Shown: piece by piece, positions 38,697 through 46,737 of the stretch
Layout of the letters: each line of letters starts with the position of its first letter
Numbering within the stretch: position 1 is the stretch's first letter
NCBI GenBank assembly: GCA_040757205.1
Contig: JBFLXL010000001.1
Location: 1-64,000, forward strand
Length of the DNA stretch: 64,000 nt
Direction of reading: 5' to 3'
Origin: Bacillota bacterium
GTDB taxonomy: Bacteria > Bacillota > Desulfotomaculia > Desulfotomaculales > Desulforudaceae
Made by a program: the position numbers and the translations under genes
The notes under the pieces: model-generated
What the model was told of the DNA's origin: nothing
The model's input: the letters and a program-made list of their open reading frames with translations, nothing else
The model's database searches: none

Positions 38697-38943
38697 GTCG
38701 ACAAAAAGCCCACGTTGAGACTGACCAGCTTCAAGTCCACTCTTTTCATGAATTCTCCCGAATTTGACTCCTGCTCCAGTCCATCTCTTTGCTTCCAAAA
38801 CAGAAACAGCAAACAGAAGGAATTGTCACTGCCGCGAAGAATCAAGCATTTGGGGGCTATGTGGATATATATGGATGCTGGGTAAAAAATTTGGCAGATT
38901 GTACTATTGCGGTGCATCAAAAACTGCTGTTTGGAGGCGCAGG
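38697..38943. other. Low-GC boundary region
   Basis: 247 bp between livF and the methyltransferase, clearly poorer in GC than livF. I see no terminator, promoter or reading frame that I can defend. It marks the left edge of the compositionally different module. Confidence 0.5.
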
Positions 38944-39672
38944 ATGACCAGAAGCCACGCCAACTTATGGCAACTGTATGCTCGGGTTTATGACTCCGTT
39001 ATATTGTTGTTTCTGCCATATAGAGACTTGACACATAAGGTGGTCGACAGACTAAAACCCACACCCGGCGCACGTATTCTTGATGCCGGCTGCGGTACCG
39101 GCAACTTGATAGTGCATCTTGTTAAGACGCGGTCGGATGTAGAAGCGGTTGGTATCGACTTTTCCGAAGCGATGTTGCGCCGTGCCGGGAAGAAAAGCAA
39201 ACAACTGCGGACGGTCACTCTTCTGGAGGCGGATCTGAACGAATGGCTGCCGTTTGGTGACGGAGAGTTTGACGGGATCACGTGCGTAAATGTACTGTAC
39301 GCTGTCAAGAGGCCGTCATTTTTGCTGAATGAGATGAACAGGGTGCTTCGAACAAGTGGAATAATTGTATTGGCCACCCCGATATTCAAAACAAAGATGA
39401 GTCTTATTTTCAGTGAGCACGTTGCCGGTCTGAGGAGATCATATGCTCGGTTATGGCCGCTGGTACTGACTATGCAAATCGCCCGTGTGGCGCCTTCGGC
39501 AATTCCTTTTTTGTTGATCAACAAATTCATTCAAGAAGAACAAGCGTTTCACTTTTTTCAGGAAGAGGAACTACGGCTGCTTGCTGAAGAATGTGGTTTT
39601 CGAATCGATTCCCTTGAGAAAGCCTACGGGGGACAAGTATGGCTCCTCGCTGGGCGAAAGGAAACCGGATAG
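38944..39672 (+). CDS. SAM-dependent methyltransferase (class I)
   Basis: A 242-residue class I methyltransferase related to the UbiE/COQ5 group. SAM-binding motif I is ILDAGCGTGNLIVHL, followed by the acidic motif II VGIDFSEAML and motif III/post I LPFGDGEFDGITCVNVLYAV. After the core a hydrophobic helical part (about residues 145-200) could contact a lipid or membrane. ATG at 38944 has GGAGG upstream. Base composition and codon use are AT-richer than the rest of the window. It lies just upstream of an atypical ketosynthase, so a fatty or polyketide-like methyl acceptor is plausible but unproven. Confidence 0.85.
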   Translation: MTRSHANLWQLYARVYDSVILLFLPYRDLTHKVVDRLKPTPGARILDAGCGTGNLIVHLVKTRSDVEAVGIDFSEAMLRRAGKKSKQLRTVTLLEADLNEWLPFGDGEFDGITCVNVLYAVKRPSFLLNEMNRVLRTSGIIVLATPIFKTKMSLIFSEHVAGLRRSYARLWPLVLTMQIARVAPSAIPFLLINKFIQEEQAFHFFQEEELRLLAEECGFRIDSLEKAYGGQVWLLAGRKETG

Positions 39673-39712
39673 AGGATCATAAACCGTTGAACACCAATGG
39701 GAGCTGATGTGA

Positions 39713-40945
39713 ATGACCGAAGCGGTAATCACCGGGCTGGGTCCCGTAGCGCTAAACGGTCTCGGTAAAGATCGGTTCTGGGAAGCCCTTAGGAATGGAA
39801 AGGCAGGGATTTGTCCAGTAGTCCATTCCCAAGGGGATAGACACTCAAGGGAAATCGCTGGCCGGATTCCACGAAGCTGGATCTTGGAGAGAGACTCGTA
39901 CTCCCATTTCAACGGTGCTTCCTGGCGCACTAAGTTGATTGTGGCTGCTGCACGCCTGGCTCTTCAGGACGCAGGGCTTACTCAAACGGAGTATTCCTCC
40001 TGCCGTGCCAGCGTCATCATGGGCGCGAGCAACATTGATATGGAGGTCACTGAGAGAGAACTCGCCGTTTATATGGAATCGGGTGCCGCGTGTCCTACGG
40101 GCATTGCCTCGGCTTCACCTCATGCAGCGGCTAGTGAAATTGCCCGGGAATTGAACTGTTCTGGGACGGTCCTCACCTTCACTGTCGCCTGTTCGTCCGG
40201 GTTAGTGAGTATTATTGCTGCAGTGGAGTCAATCCTGAGGGGCGAATCGGACTTGGTACTGGCGGGAGGGGGGGACGCCTCTGTGACTCCGTTTTTCGTC
40301 AACTCATTGTGTGCTACAGGTGTTCATCCGTCCAACTCAGGGAACGGTTCGGCGATGGCCAGCAAACCGTTTGATGCTCAGCGTGAAGGTGGTGTACTTA
40401 CTGAAGGCGCCGGAGTGGTCTTGGTGGAGAGTCTTGAACATGCTCGTCAGCGCGGAGCACACATCTATGCTCGAGTAACGGGTTGGGGTATTGCCAATGC
40501 GACATCACCCAAGTTACTAAGGGAGGCGTTTGCGTCCGCAATGGAGCAGTCCTTGGCTAGGGCAGGACTTAGTCCAGGTATGATCGATTATGTTTCCGCC
40601 CATGCTCCCGGAATTCAACTGTCGGACAGGCTGGAAGTGCAAGCGATCAAGGACGTATTTGGAGTGCAAGCTTACAATTTGGCGGTTGGCTCAATCAAGT
40701 CCATGATCGGTAATCCGATGGCGGCCTCGGGCCCCCTTCAAGTCATTGCAGCAGCCCAAAGTATAGAACACGGATACCTACCACCCACCACCAATTACCA
40801 ACATCCCGATCCGCACTGTGATCTGGATTTTGTACCCAACCTAGGAAGAGTGGCCCGAATCCGCAAGGTAATGGTCAACTCTTCCGGTATTGGGGGTTGT
40901 ATAGCATCCCTGATAGTGACCAAAGTCAATCCTGGGTCGAGATAA
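39713..40945 (+). CDS. FabF-like ketosynthase with Cys-His-Asn active site
   Basis: A 410-residue thiolase-fold condensing enzyme, clearly FabF-related over its whole length. Cys160 (FTVACSSGL) and His297 (SAHAPG) are kept, as is the Lys329 of KSM, but the second active-site His, expected in KSMTGH, is Asn334 (KSMIGN). The loop after His297 (APGIQLSD for GTSTSLND) is also changed. Cys-His-Asn is the arrangement of FabH-type enzymes. The housekeeping fabF at 13983 has a normal active site, so this is a specialised paralog. It ends 5 nt before the start of a sensor kinase gene, so both are almost certainly one transcript. Moderate GC suggests transfer. Confidence 0.85.
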   Translation: MTEAVITGLGPVALNGLGKDRFWEALRNGKAGICPVVHSQGDRHSREIAGRIPRSWILERDSYSHFNGASWRTKLIVAAARLALQDAGLTQTEYSSCRASVIMGASNIDMEVTERELAVYMESGAACPTGIASASPHAAASEIARELNCSGTVLTFTVACSSGLVSIIAAVESILRGESDLVLAGGGDASVTPFFVNSLCATGVHPSNSGNGSAMASKPFDAQREGGVLTEGAGVVLVESLEHARQRGAHIYARVTGWGIANATSPKLLREAFASAMEQSLARAGLSPGMIDYVSAHAPGIQLSDRLEVQAIKDVFGVQAYNLAVGSIKSMIGNPMAASGPLQVIAAAQSIEHGYLPPTTNYQHPDPHCDLDFVPNLGRVARIRKVMVNSSGIGGCIASLIVTKVNPGSR

Positions 40946-40949
40946 CGTT

Positions 40950-43523
40950 ATGGATAGTCTTACCCTAATACCGACATTTGTCGGTCTGACATCGGCAGCG
41001 CTGGGCTTGACAGCGGTGACCTTTTTGTATCTAGGTGTTACCGTCTTCAGGAGAAATCCTCAGTCCCTTTTGCACCGCATTTTTTTGGCGTTGTCTTTGA
41101 ACGCTTCTCTTTGGGTTTTTGCCGTTCTAATGATTTCCTTAGTTGAAGAATACCAGACCCTCGTGTTTTGGATGAGGTTTGCACACGCCGTTGCGTCAAT
41201 TGTTCCGTGTTTTGTCATCGCCTTAGTGTACACCTTTGAAACTGACAGAAAATACCCGAAGGCAAAGGTGTTTGGTATTTTTGTCTTGGGGCTGATTCTG
41301 GGGGTCTTAAGCATGACCCCGGCAATCATCAGCGATGTAGCATACCCCCTTGAAGAAAAGAATCTGGTCTACGGCAACTGGTTCGTCCTGTATCCGCTGT
41401 TCTTTAGTGGGGTCATAGCCTTCGCTCTGTACAAACTATTGCGTTTATTACGAAAAACACGTGGAATAGCTCGGCTGCAACTGCGATACTTTTTTGGAGG
41501 TCTCCTGGCTTCTTTCATTATAGGCAGCTTGGCAAACCTTTTTCTCCCTTGGATCGGCCTGACAAGCGTGGCTATTCGAAATCTGGGGCCACTATCCATT
41601 ATGGTTGCCATATCCATGATTACCTATGCGATTCTGCGCTACCGCCTGATGGACATTCGTTTGGCTTTCGGCACCGGTCTCACTTACGGATTTGCTGTTG
41701 TCATCCTGTTCGTCGTGACCGCCTTGCCGGCCTATGTAATGGAAACCGTTTTCAATGTCCGGATGGAGGCCTTGTTTTACTATTACATAATATTTGTGGC
41801 GGGCACGGTCGTTATCCTTTTCCGGCCGTTGAGAAACGGGCTGGAGTCTTTGGTCCACCGCTTTTACCACCGTAGAGCATACGACTACTTCAACGCCTTA
41901 CTCGCTGCCAACAAGACGACCGTTACCATTCTTGACCGGGATAGGCTCTTGAAATTCCTGATTGACAAGTGGGTAAGCACCATCGGCATCGTCGGCGTCG
42001 TCTTTTTCCTCAGGGGGCTCGACGGCCGCTTCATTCCGGTGGCCGAAAGGCGCCCGCCGGCGCACGCCCCTGAAGACAATGGCAAGGCCCGCACGCAGGC
42101 GGAAGTGGAGCACGCGGTCAAAGAGGGTCACGCCCTTGAAGACGATAGTGAGGCCCGCACGCCGGGCCGGGCGCTCATATCTCATCTGGAGGAGCACGGG
42201 GACGTGCTTCTTTTTACCGACTTAAGAGGTCTTGCCCCACGGGAGAAGGGGCAGTTGCTTGCCCGGCAAATGGCCGCACTCCGAGCCGAGGCCGCGGTTC
42301 CGGTGATCATAGATGGGCGGCTGGAAGGGATATTCTTTCTGGGATCCAAGATCTCGGGCGAACCCTATTCGCAGGAAGACGTGAAGCTGCTGGCCACGCT
42401 GGTGTCGCAAGTCGCCATTTCTTTGAAAAACGCGCAGCTCTACCAGGAAGTACTGGTAATGAAACGGTACTTGGAGAACGTGCTGGAAAACATAGGCAAC
42501 GGCTTAATTGCGGTTGATTGGTCGGGCACTATCACCACCTTTAACAGCGCCGCCGAGAGGTTGACCGGAATATCCGCCGGAGAGGCACTGGGGAAAAAGG
42601 CGGACGAGGTCCTTGACCCGGCGATAAGCGGGCTGATAGTCCAGGCGATGGAGACCGCCGAAGCGAAGAGTAAAGTGGAATTGGAGCTTCAGGCCGGGGA
42701 GGCCGTCCGCTTCGTTTCCTGCAGCACGGCGGTGGTGGAGGCGCCGGAGAGTGGGCGGCGCGGCGCGATTCTAGTGATGAGCGACGTTACGCAGGTCAAG
42801 GAACTGGAACGTGAGAAAAGCCAGATCGAGCGGCTGGCGTCCCTGGGTCAGGTGGCGGCCGGCATAGCGCACGAGATCAAAAACCCGCTGGTTTCGATCA
42901 AAACATTTGCGGAGCTTTTGCCGGAGAAGTATGAAAACCCGGAGTTTCGCCTTGATTTCTCCCGCATCGTCAGTCAGGAAATTGAACGGATCAATAACCT
43001 GGTGACGGAGCTTCTGAGTTTCACCCGCAGTTCCCGGCTGCAGTGTGAAGAGGTCGACGCCGAAGCCCTTATGGACGAGGTGCTGCTTTTGTTGTCGCCC
43101 CAGATGGACAGGCAGAATGTTCGTGTGAAAAGACAATATGACCCCGGAGTGCGCCCTCTCTGGGCGGATAAGAACCAGTTGAAGCAAGCGTTTCTTAACG
43201 TTTGCCTGAATGGCATCCAGGCTATGACCGGCGGGGGCGAACTTAGGATATCCATCCTTGCCGAATCCGGCAGGGATCACACAGGTAAAGATATTGCCCC
43301 GGGAGGAAAGGTGAAGATCGTTGTCGAAGATACAGGAGTGGGTATTTCTGCCAAGGAAAAAGACCGAGTTTTCGACCCGTTTTTCACCACCAAGCCCGAA
43401 GGTGTGGGCATCGGGTTGAGCATCAGTCACAAAATCGTGGTCGACCATGGGGGGACCATCCAGATCAGAAGCAGGCAGGGGGAGGGCGCAACCTTTGAAA
43501 TTTGCCTTCCGGTTGCCGGTTAG
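40950..43523 (+). CDS. 7TM-GAF-PAS sensor histidine kinase
   Basis: An 857-residue membrane kinase. Residues 1-300 hold about nine hydrophobic helices of the 7TM histidine-kinase sensor type ending YAILRYRLMDIR; then a GAF-like domain (about 320-500), a PAS domain (about 510-610), HisKA with His641 (GIAHEIKNPL) and an intact HATPase (N box, DTGVGIS, GVGIGLSIS). A pair of imperfect repeats (HAPEDNGKART / HALEDDSEART) lengthens the GAF domain. GC rises sharply near 41.9 kb, between membrane and GAF parts. ATG 5 nt after the ketosynthase stop. The multi-helix sensor suits a hydrophobic ligand. Confidence 0.88.
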   Translation: MDSLTLIPTFVGLTSAALGLTAVTFLYLGVTVFRRNPQSLLHRIFLALSLNASLWVFAVLMISLVEEYQTLVFWMRFAHAVASIVPCFVIALVYTFETDRKYPKAKVFGIFVLGLILGVLSMTPAIISDVAYPLEEKNLVYGNWFVLYPLFFSGVIAFALYKLLRLLRKTRGIARLQLRYFFGGLLASFIIGSLANLFLPWIGLTSVAIRNLGPLSIMVAISMITYAILRYRLMDIRLAFGTGLTYGFAVVILFVVTALPAYVMETVFNVRMEALFYYYIIFVAGTVVILFRPLRNGLESLVHRFYHRRAYDYFNALLAANKTTVTILDRDRLLKFLIDKWVSTIGIVGVVFFLRGLDGRFIPVAERRPPAHAPEDNGKARTQAEVEHAVKEGHALEDDSEARTPGRALISHLEEHGDVLLFTDLRGLAPREKGQLLARQMAALRAEAAVPVIIDGRLEGIFFLGSKISGEPYSQEDVKLLATLVSQVAISLKNAQLYQEVLVMKRYLENVLENIGNGLIAVDWSGTITTFNSAAERLTGISAGEALGKKADEVLDPAISGLIVQAMETAEAKSKVELELQAGEAVRFVSCSTAVVEAPESGRRGAILVMSDVTQVKELEREKSQIERLASLGQVAAGIAHEIKNPLVSIKTFAELLPEKYENPEFRLDFSRIVSQEIERINNLVTELLSFTRSSRLQCEEVDAEALMDEVLLLLSPQMDRQNVRVKRQYDPGVRPLWADKNQLKQAFLNVCLNGIQAMTGGGELRISILAESGRDHTGKDIAPGGKVKIVVEDTGVGISAKEKDRVFDPFFTTKPEGVGIGLSISHKIVVDHGGTIQIRSRQGEGATFEICLPVAG
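42063..42162. repeat. In-frame imperfect 34-bp duplication within the kinase gene
   Basis: The segments 42063-42096 and 42129-42162 match at 29 of 34 positions, offset by 66 bp (22 codons), so the reading frame is kept. They encode HAPEDNGKART and HALEDDSEART in the GAF-like domain. Confidence 0.85.
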
Positions 43524-43586
43524 GCGGTTTTCTCAGCGGATAAAACCAGCGCAACAGTCTGCCGAGACGGGGGAGAGGGAATCGAC

Positions 43587-45548
43587 TTGAAGATGGTGCT
43601 CGTCGTTTCCAAAAACAACGGCAGCCTCGGGGCAATCAGGGGCCTTATTCCGGAGCGGTATACCCTGATGGATGCCGACATGGGGTCCGAGGGGATGCAT
43701 TTGCTGCGCAGCATCATTACGGGGGTGGTGCTGGTGGACGCCGCCGCCCCCGGCGTTTTGCCCTGGATTGAGGAAGCAGAGCGGTTGAGGCCGGATCTCA
43801 CCTACATCGGGGTTACCGACAGCCCCAATCCGGACCGGACCCTGTCGCAGCGCTTCTATGATCTTCTTCAGCCTCCCTTCACGTCGGTCCGGCTGGACCG
43901 CGCTCTGGCCCGGGCCTGGGAAAGAACGGAACTTGCTTTCGTGGCGCGAAGCCTGAAAAAACCGGCCGACCGCAGGGAACACCCCGCTCATATCAGGCCC
44001 GCGGTCCCAAACAGGCAGCGAGGGCGCGTGTGTGAACTATCCAAGGTGCTGAACAACAGCCTGAACCAAGACCGTCTCCTGGAGCTTTTCCTGGACGCCG
44101 TTGCGGGACTGGCTCCCGTGGGGAAGATGTCCGTACTGCTGGCGGACGAGAGCGGCGGAGAATATCGGGTCCGCAAACAAAGGGGTCTGGCCCCGGAGTT
44201 CTGCTCCAAACTGCGGTTCGACTCCTCTCGGGGACTTATTGCCTGGTTGGCCGCCGAGGGGCGCCTCCTCCGCGTTGGAGAAACCAACGGCGAAAACCTG
44301 CTTTTCACCACCGAAGCCTTACAAGAGATGCAACTTCTGCAGGCCGTGGTGAGCGTACCGCTGTCGGCTCACGGGCGGTTGATCGGCGCCCTGAACCTGG
44401 GGCCCAAGGTAACCGGCGCCGAGTACGGCGACGAAGAATTGGAGACTCTCTATATCCTTTCCGGAAATGTAGCCGTGGCTCTGCAGGATATCGATTTGCA
44501 TCATCGGCTCCAGCACCAAAAATCGTACATCGAGAGCATCCTCCGGCGTATGAACAGTGGGGTCGTGGCTATCAATTGTGAAGAACGGGTTATTACCTTC
44601 AACAGCCGTGCTCAGGAAATACTGAAGTTGGATCCGGAACAGGTGCTGGGCCGGGACTTGCGTTCCCTGCCGAGCCCCTTGGGCGATTTGCTCTACGACA
44701 CCATGTCCACGGCCCGGACTTACGATAGGGAGGAAGTTCAGCTGGCGCGCGGGCGCGTTCCCCTGGAGGTCAGCATTTACCAGCTGGTTAACGGCACCGC
44801 TGTCCTGGGAAGCGTCATGATCCTTGATGACATCTCCGAGCGCAAACAGCTCGAAATGGAACGGCGCCAAGCCGATCAACTTGATGTGCTGAACAAATTC
44901 GTCGGCCAACTGGCGCACGAGATAAAGAACCCGATGGTGGCCATTCAGACCTTTTCGGAACTCCTGCCTGAGAAGTACGAAGATGGTGACTTCAGGGACT
45001 TTTTCACACGGACGGTGCGCCAAGAGGTCAAGCGGTTGAACGAGTTGGTGGAACAACTAATCGCCTTTTCGTCACCCTTATCATATAAGTTTGTTGTTTG
45101 CGAGATCCACGAGGTCCTTCGGCTGGGAGTCTCACTATTAAGGGAGCAGGGCAAGGGAACCGATATGACTGTAGAGGCGGCATACTGTGAAGAACTGTTG
45201 TACGTCAGGGCCGACCGAATTCTGCTGGCGAGAGCGTTTTCCTACCTGCTGAATTCATTTCTACCCAATGAACAAGGGGGGAGTATACACATTAAGACCG
45301 TTGGCGACCAAAGTCTTTTCAGTCATGGTGGTGTTGTCATTGCCTTTCGAAGCTTAGGAATCAGCGTGGCTGGTGAAGAACCGGAGAATATGTTTAATCC
45401 ACTTCGCGTCATCAGGAATAGCCACATTTCTCTTGAATTGCCGGTAAGCCGGAAAATTATCGAGGATCACGGGGGCCGGATTAAGGCGTCATTGACAAAA
45501 AGCAAAGGACTTGAGTTCTCCGTCTCAATGCCCACAATTGCCCAATGA
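43587..45548 (+). CDS. Cytoplasmic GAF-PAS histidine kinase-like protein with degenerate ATPase domain
   Basis: A 653-residue soluble protein: an N-terminal pseudo-receiver (1-115), a GAF domain (about 150-300), PAS (about 310-420) and HisKA with His443 (QLAHEIKNPM). The C-terminal HATPase fold is damaged: the DxGxG box is replaced by RSLGISV, and the GTGLGL box by SHISLEL, although KIIEDHGGRI survives. From about 45060 the DNA is AT-richer than the rest of the gene. It probably cannot bind ATP and may serve as dimer partner, phospho-acceptor or scaffold for the upstream kinase. TTG start at 43587; ATG at 43593 is possible. Confidence 0.82.
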   Translation: MKMVLVVSKNNGSLGAIRGLIPERYTLMDADMGSEGMHLLRSIITGVVLVDAAAPGVLPWIEEAERLRPDLTYIGVTDSPNPDRTLSQRFYDLLQPPFTSVRLDRALARAWERTELAFVARSLKKPADRREHPAHIRPAVPNRQRGRVCELSKVLNNSLNQDRLLELFLDAVAGLAPVGKMSVLLADESGGEYRVRKQRGLAPEFCSKLRFDSSRGLIAWLAAEGRLLRVGETNGENLLFTTEALQEMQLLQAVVSVPLSAHGRLIGALNLGPKVTGAEYGDEELETLYILSGNVAVALQDIDLHHRLQHQKSYIESILRRMNSGVVAINCEERVITFNSRAQEILKLDPEQVLGRDLRSLPSPLGDLLYDTMSTARTYDREEVQLARGRVPLEVSIYQLVNGTAVLGSVMILDDISERKQLEMERRQADQLDVLNKFVGQLAHEIKNPMVAIQTFSELLPEKYEDGDFRDFFTRTVRQEVKRLNELVEQLIAFSSPLSYKFVVCEIHEVLRLGVSLLREQGKGTDMTVEAAYCEELLYVRADRILLARAFSYLLNSFLPNEQGGSIHIKTVGDQSLFSHGGVVIAFRSLGISVAGEEPENMFNPLRVIRNSHISLELPVSRKIIEDHGGRIKASLTKSKGLEFSVSMPTIAQ

Positions 45549-46594
45549 AGGTGGTGGAGGGGTTGGCAAAGCCATCTAAGATACTGGTGGTGGATGATGA
45601 ATTGGGCCCCAGGGAAGCACTGAGGCTGATCCTGCAGGATCACTACGAAATCGCCACGGCGCAAAACGGCCATCAGGCACTGGATCACCTTTCAGATCGG
45701 GAATTTGACCTGGTGATCATGGATATCAGGATGCCTGGCATCAACGGTATCGACCTGCTCGCGGAGGCCAAGAAGAAGGCCCCGGACACGGAGGTGGTGA
45801 TGATCACCGCCTATGCCTCGGTGGAAACGGCTGCCAGCGCCTTGAGGCACGGCGCCCTGGACTATCTCATCAAGCCTTTTGACCGCAAGTCGGTTATGGA
45901 AGTGGTGCAAAAGGGACTTTCGCGCCGCGCCGAATCCCGCAAGATCAAGGGCCGGCTGGAAGAACTGCAACTGGCGAACCAGGCTCTGAGGCACGAGATT
46001 GAGCGGGCTTCCATCAACATCCAGCGGCACTACCTGGAAACGGTACGCTCCCTGGTGGCGGCCATCGATGCCAAGGACTCGTACACCAAGTCCCACCAGG
46101 AAAGAGTGGTCATGTTCGCCATGCTCCTGGGGGCCGAATTGGGTCTTTCGGCCAGAGAAATCGGACTGATCCAACAGGCCGCGGTGTTGCACGACATCGG
46201 CAAAATCGGAGTACCCGAGCAGATTCTCCTGAAGAAAGAGTTTCTGACTATAGAGGAGTATGACATCATTAAGCAGCATCCGGTGATCGGGGCGGAGATT
46301 ATTTCTCCAGTGCAGTTCCTGAGCGAAGTGGTACCGATCGTGCTGCATCATCACGAGCGGTTTGACGGGAACGGTTACCCTGACGGGCTCAAGGGGCTGG
46401 TGATTCCCGTGGGCGCCAGGATTCTGGCGGTTGCGGACGCAGTGGACGCGATGCTCTCCGAACGGCCCTATGCCCCGGCAAAATCGGTGGCCAAGGTGCA
46501 AGAGCAACTGCGCCTTTGCTCAGGTACCCAGTTCGACCCCCAACTGGTCAAAATAGCGCTGAAGATAGACCTTCCGTCCAGGCGCATCATCTAG
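45545..46594 (+). CDS. Response regulator with HD-GYP phosphodiesterase domain
   Basis: A 349-residue RpfG-like regulator. REC domain with the phosphoacceptor Asp60 (VIMDIRMPG) and Lys in LIKPF; a coiled-coil linker; then HD-GYP with HDIGKIG and HHERFDGNGYPDG, the signature of cyclic-di-GMP hydrolases. Its ATG overlaps the stop of the preceding kinase gene, so the three signalling genes form one operon. The predicted output is lowering of cyclic-di-GMP. Confidence 0.93.
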   Translation: MKVVEGLAKPSKILVVDDELGPREALRLILQDHYEIATAQNGHQALDHLSDREFDLVIMDIRMPGINGIDLLAEAKKKAPDTEVVMITAYASVETAASALRHGALDYLIKPFDRKSVMEVVQKGLSRRAESRKIKGRLEELQLANQALRHEIERASINIQRHYLETVRSLVAAIDAKDSYTKSHQERVVMFAMLLGAELGLSAREIGLIQQAAVLHDIGKIGVPEQILLKKEFLTIEEYDIIKQHPVIGAEIISPVQFLSEVVPIVLHHHERFDGNGYPDGLKGLVIPVGARILAVADAVDAMLSERPYAPAKSVAKVQEQLRLCSGTQFDPQLVKIALKIDLPSRRII

Positions 46595-46620
46595 TAGGAA
46601 AGAAATTGATTTGAGCGCGA

Positions 46621-46644
46621 GCAGGGGGCGGCGTGGCCCCCTGC
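46621..46644 (+). terminator. Hairpin at the end of the signalling operon
   Basis: GCAGGGGGC at 46621-46629 pairs with GCCCCCTGC at 46636-46644, followed by a CT-rich stretch rather than a T-run. It lies 27 nt after the response regulator stop and also before the convergent chemoreceptor gene. Confidence 0.6.
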
Positions 46645-46737
46645 TCTCTCTCCGGCTGGTCCGTATCAGTCCGGCGGCCGCGGCCGCCGGTGCGGGAAAT
46701 CGGCACGCAATCGCAGCGCAATCAAGGAATACTCCCT

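Follow-up and report, generated by a model that had tools for sequence, protein, structure and literature searches.

Do the two enzymes encoded at the head of a five-gene locus in a Desulforudaceae genome make a ligand for the sensor kinase encoded next to them, and what would such a ligand control? The locus lies in the window, the whole stretch of 64,000 nucleotides that was analysed (positions 1–64,000, forward strand, of contig JBFLXL010000001.1 in assembly GCA_040757205.1, Bacillota bacterium, Desulforudaceae). Its co-directional, tightly packed open reading frames encode, in this order, a methyltransferase (MT), a ketosynthase homologue (KS), a 7TM kinase (HK1), a pseudokinase (HK2) and a REC-HD-GYP regulator (RR). 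The features are listed in Table 1.

Table 1. Genes, domains and sequence features at the locus.
Feature	Positions	Strand	Basis
MT, class I SAM-dependent methyltransferase, about 242 aa	38944–39672	+	Pfam Methyltransf_31/11/25
KS, FabF-fold ketosynthase homologue	39713–40945	+	Pfam ketoacyl-synt N+C
HK1, 7TM-GAF-PAS-HisKA-HATPase_c sensor histidine kinase	40950–43523	+	Pfam
HK1 7TM sensor domain, residues 1–236	40950–41657	+	HisKA_7TM at residues 20–236
HK2, GAF-PAS-HisKA with degenerate ATPase, pseudokinase	43587–45548	+	Pfam GAF/PAS/HisKA; HATPase below cut-off
RR, REC-HD-GYP response regulator	45545–46594	+	Pfam Response_reg, HD_5
Perfect 11-bp inverted repeat, 6-nt loop, terminator-like, weak T tract	46619–46646	+	Read from sequence
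Divergent allele block: MT, KS, 7TM part of HK1	38750–41750	.	Identity to G001, pS
Second, weaker divergent patch: HK2 PAS/HisKA and degenerate ATPase	44500–45600	.	Identity to G001, pS

Conservation of the five-gene module

A first-pass annotation of this DNA had described five consecutive co-directional genes, a very short spacer between KS and HK1, and a last gene that starts inside the end of the preceding one. All three points hold: the reading frames run as described, the KS stop and the HK1 start are separated by 4 nt, and the RR start lies upstream of the HK2 end. A GGAGG ribosome site precedes the MT ATG, HK2 starts with TTG preceded by GGGGGAGAGG, and the inverted repeat sits 3' of the RR stop. 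Within the module no internal terminators were found above chance in a comparison with shuffled sequences, promoters showed no excess over shuffles, and a search of the window for an RNA element in the leader gave no Rfam match.

The same annotation had asked whether the neighbourhood is conserved beyond this genome, and genome searches answer this strongly: the same five-gene order recurs in 25 deep-branching genomes of a single phylum, Bacillota, that represent at least two GTDB classes. A contig scan with a single protein recovered only two loci, and profile searches were needed for the rest. HK1 directly follows KS in every one of the 25 genomes; the other departures from the five-gene order are contig ends in all but two cases, and MT is absent in two genomes that carry the rest of the module (L026 and L098). 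Within the window's family, KS, HK1 and HK2 are present or absent together. A sample of the phylum added one further module genome (G158), while another hit from it (G221) was a false lead, an ordinary FabF locus whose product is 63% identical to the window's FabF. Two genomes (G541, G564) have HK2 with no KS match, and G498 has a second HK1–HK2–RR copy, but in all three the contig ends before the expected KS position, and these cases do not contradict co-occurrence. Several relatives have, upstream of MT, a gene in which a SelA-like enzyme domain is joined to PAS-GGDEF-HD-GYP.

Could the enzyme pair and the sensory trio be separate units, juxtaposed by chance or co-transfer? The 63-nt gap between HK1 and HK2 would allow it, as would the GC content of the enzyme genes, which is lower than that of HK2 and RR. 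A chance arrangement is excluded, however, because the same gene order is kept in 25 genomes, and the adjacency holds among flanking genes that differ from genome to genome. Moreover, genes of the module overlap or lie only 4 nt apart, the five gene trees agree mutually (r 0.75–0.93, versus only 0.44–0.50 against the FabF tree), and the divergent block described below spans the KS–HK1 border. This explanation is largely refuted, and we consider it highly improbable.

GC content is 48–54% over 38.5–41.5 kb, compared with about 60–66% in the surroundings, so that the odd composition noted at first pass is real. Its interpretation as acquisition did not survive: both sister species carry the module at the identical site, after livF, and the KS proteins of the window's genus are monophyletic, which together rule out recent acquisition by this genome.

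Catalytic residues and signalling domains

By Pfam and by structure match KS has the thiolase-type FabF fold. Its AlphaFold2 model (pLDDT 84.7) matches FabF best among PDB entries (1j3n, Z 61.5, rmsd 1.6 over 400 residues), and the structural search returned only FabF/KS/CLF folds, with no hint of the substrate. The catalytic residues are different. The window protein carries C160, H297 and N334, as the first-pass description of a Cys-His-Asn ketosynthase had it, and retains K329. All 25 orthologs have the Cys and the Lys; none has the second catalytic His (Asn in 22, Ser in 3), and five have lost the first as well. HGTxT is replaced by HAPG with loss of the pantetheine threonines. KS thus lacks the Cys-His-His triad with HGTxT of FabF/KAS II, and it scores 284.5 bits on TIGR03150 against a cut-off of 493.75. 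Purifying selection on KS, together with the invariant Cys and Lys, rules out decay. The label “condensing enzyme”, given at first pass, is doubtful because the decarboxylation residues are lost; the residue pattern suggests that KS acts in acyl transfer rather than in ordinary malonyl condensation. A precedent is offered by the KS0 domains of trans-AT PKS, which have the KS fold, keep the Cys and are transacylases without elongation (PMC8456789), but these are megasynthase domains that have lost a different set of residues, whereas the module's KS is free-standing in a signalling operon.

In MT the SAM motif reads DAGCGTGN in the window, DAGCGTG is invariant across 19 orthologs, and the C-terminal half is hydrophobic; a PDB search with the MT profile returned only generic methyltransferases. 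HK1 is a complete kinase, its H, N, G1, F and G2 boxes being present wherever the ortholog sequences reach that far, and its 7TM domain has seven predicted helices (model pLDDT 84.9). HK2 keeps the H box with the phospho-acceptor His, but the N, G1 and G2 boxes are lost in all orthologs that cover them; its N-terminus appears receiver-like on reading the alignment, although Pfam calls no receiver there. The D, HD and GYP motifs of RR are intact in the alignment, and by Pfam it has no DNA-binding domain.

These features bear on two explanations in which nothing need be secreted. The first is an internal lipid-status sensor: KS, formerly a condensing enzyme, would now do no more than bind acyl groups or acyl-ACP, and together with MT it would inform the membrane kinase of membrane state or fatty-acid supply. 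The universal loss of the second His, the partial loss of the first and the missing threonines beside a kept Cys and Lys are in line with this, and a sensory role for enzyme-like parts would suit a locus at which, in several relatives, a SelA-like domain is fused to PAS-GGDEF-HD-GYP upstream. On the other hand, the SAM site of MT is intact, and an internal nutrient sensor would not be expected to show a block of divergent alleles linked to the 7TM domain; we regard this explanation as rather unlikely. In the second, KS and MT would tailor a pigment or a membrane lipid, and the two-component trio would respond to a cue from the membrane by controlling adhesion or motility, again with no diffusible signal. 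7TM kinases can respond to membrane state, the C-terminal half of MT is hydrophobic, and envelope adaptation is plausible given the subsurface and anaerobic habits. Tailoring of this kind nonetheless has just two enzymes here, no further lipid gene being conserved next to them, an HD-GYP output that lacks a DNA-binding domain, and an allele block to account for, and it seems to us improbable.

Divergence of the enzymes and the sensor

We compared the window with its nearest relative, G001. Among background genes the synonymous difference has a median of 0.10 and a maximum of 0.24, versus 0.85 for MT, 0.66 for KS and 0.70 for the 7TM sensor. Nucleotide identity is 0–79% in the block versus 92–98% over most other window DNA. 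The block of synonymous divergence comprises exactly MT, KS and 7TM and falls back inside HK1 just past the 7TM domain. What differs between the species at the locus is the allele of MT, KS and 7TM, and the enzymes and the sensor have diverged together, in the manner of signal–receptor pairs. The comparison behind this divergence is of three species, not of strains; in other close genome pairs KS does not stand out as divergent.

Over and above the controls, there is covariation between KS and 7TM (partial Mantel r 0.48, p 0.0005); KS also covaries with the GAF domain of HK1 (partial Mantel 0.46); the covariation of MT and 7TM is not significant (p 0.065). Linkage could mimic co-evolution of KS and 7TM because the two are neighbours.

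In the agr and comQXP pherotype loci, synthesis genes and the sensor domain of the receptor form a divergent block in a conserved locus, and MT, KS and the 7TM domain form such a block here across the three species. Those systems use peptides, however, and the present module differs between species rather than strains and has a second patch, in HK2 (identity to G001 68–83%, pS 0.57–0.66). A model of signal and receptor alone would not predict this patch, which counts against a ligand operon, as does the fact that no ligand, transporter or carrier protein was identified.

We give about an even chance to the explanation that we prefer, in which a lipid-like ligand made by MT and KS is sensed by HK1 and acts on c-di-GMP. 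KS would load an acyl group on its Cys, probably from acyl-ACP, and pass or join it to an acceptor, and MT would methylate the product. By analogy with known signals, the resulting hydrophobic ligand may be exported and sensed by the 7TM bundle of HK1, where it would control autophosphorylation. Phosphate could reach the REC domain of RR directly or via the His of HK2, with the pseudokinase acting as partner, and altered c-di-GMP breakdown by the HD-GYP domain would then influence the choice between moving and settling.

Relation to known systems and implications

The first-pass annotation had seen the logic of the DSF system in this locus. That system consists of the crotonase-fold synthase RpfF, the hybrid kinase RpfC with REC and HPt, and the REC-HD-GYP protein RpfG. 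A synthase gene, a membrane sensor kinase and a REC-HD-GYP regulator are likewise grouped here, and RR is of the RpfG type. Pfam finds no RpfF-type crotonase-fold domain in the five proteins, though, and neither REC nor HPt in HK1, so that it is not an RpfC-type hybrid kinase; the module also has an extra pseudokinase and MT. Its domain content rules out membership of the DSF system.

The closest known architecture is instead the Phc operon of Ralstonia (phcB, phcS, phcR, phcQ), which encodes a SAM methyltransferase, a sensor histidine kinase, a soluble REC and kinase protein and a REC protein (PMC8578825). Both operons combine a SAM methyltransferase and a sensor kinase with genes for a soluble kinase and a REC protein, but here KS stands between the first two, and the counterpart of the soluble kinase, HK2, is a pseudokinase with GAF and PAS domains. 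Phc lacks both KS and an HD-GYP output; its product is a 3-OH fatty acid methyl ester, and it acts on the LysR regulator PhcA. PhcB and PhcS group according to signal type, PhcR and PhcQ according to phylotype (PMC8578825), and the divergence of MT, KS and 7TM resembles such signal-type loci. Relatives of condensing enzymes are known to make cell-to-cell signals, namely PpyS a pyrone (PMC4578411) and the FabH-type PqsBC a quinolone (PMC4807248); these have other receptors, and the module's KS is FabF-type with its decarboxylation residues lost. As the first-pass annotation had supposed, no described system with this gene set was found in the papers searched.

We see in the module a good candidate for a chemical communication system not described so far. 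A more far-reaching proposal, which we put forward only tentatively, is that deep-branching Bacillota, some of them from the deep subsurface, use a new class of cell-to-cell signalling based on lipids: a FabF-like acyltransferase that does no condensation would produce signal variants together with a methyltransferase, allele-matched 7TM kinases, with a bundle GPCR-like in arrangement, would recognise them, and the kinase/pseudokinase pair would act on c-di-GMP.

What is new here is synonymous divergence of MT, KS and the 7TM sensor far above that of neighbouring genes. The operon also supplies a defined kinase/pseudokinase pair, as well as FabF-like proteins, a family that has lost the decarboxylation machinery but not the Cys. 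Lipid-signal quorum sensing that links an enzyme, a sensor kinase and c-di-GMP is known mainly from Proteobacteria, and a conserved Bacillota counterpart would carry it into a further phylum. The module seems to occur also in the lineage of Desulforudis audaxviator, which is known for living almost alone in deep rock water, a habitat in which the use of cell-to-cell signalling is not self-evident.

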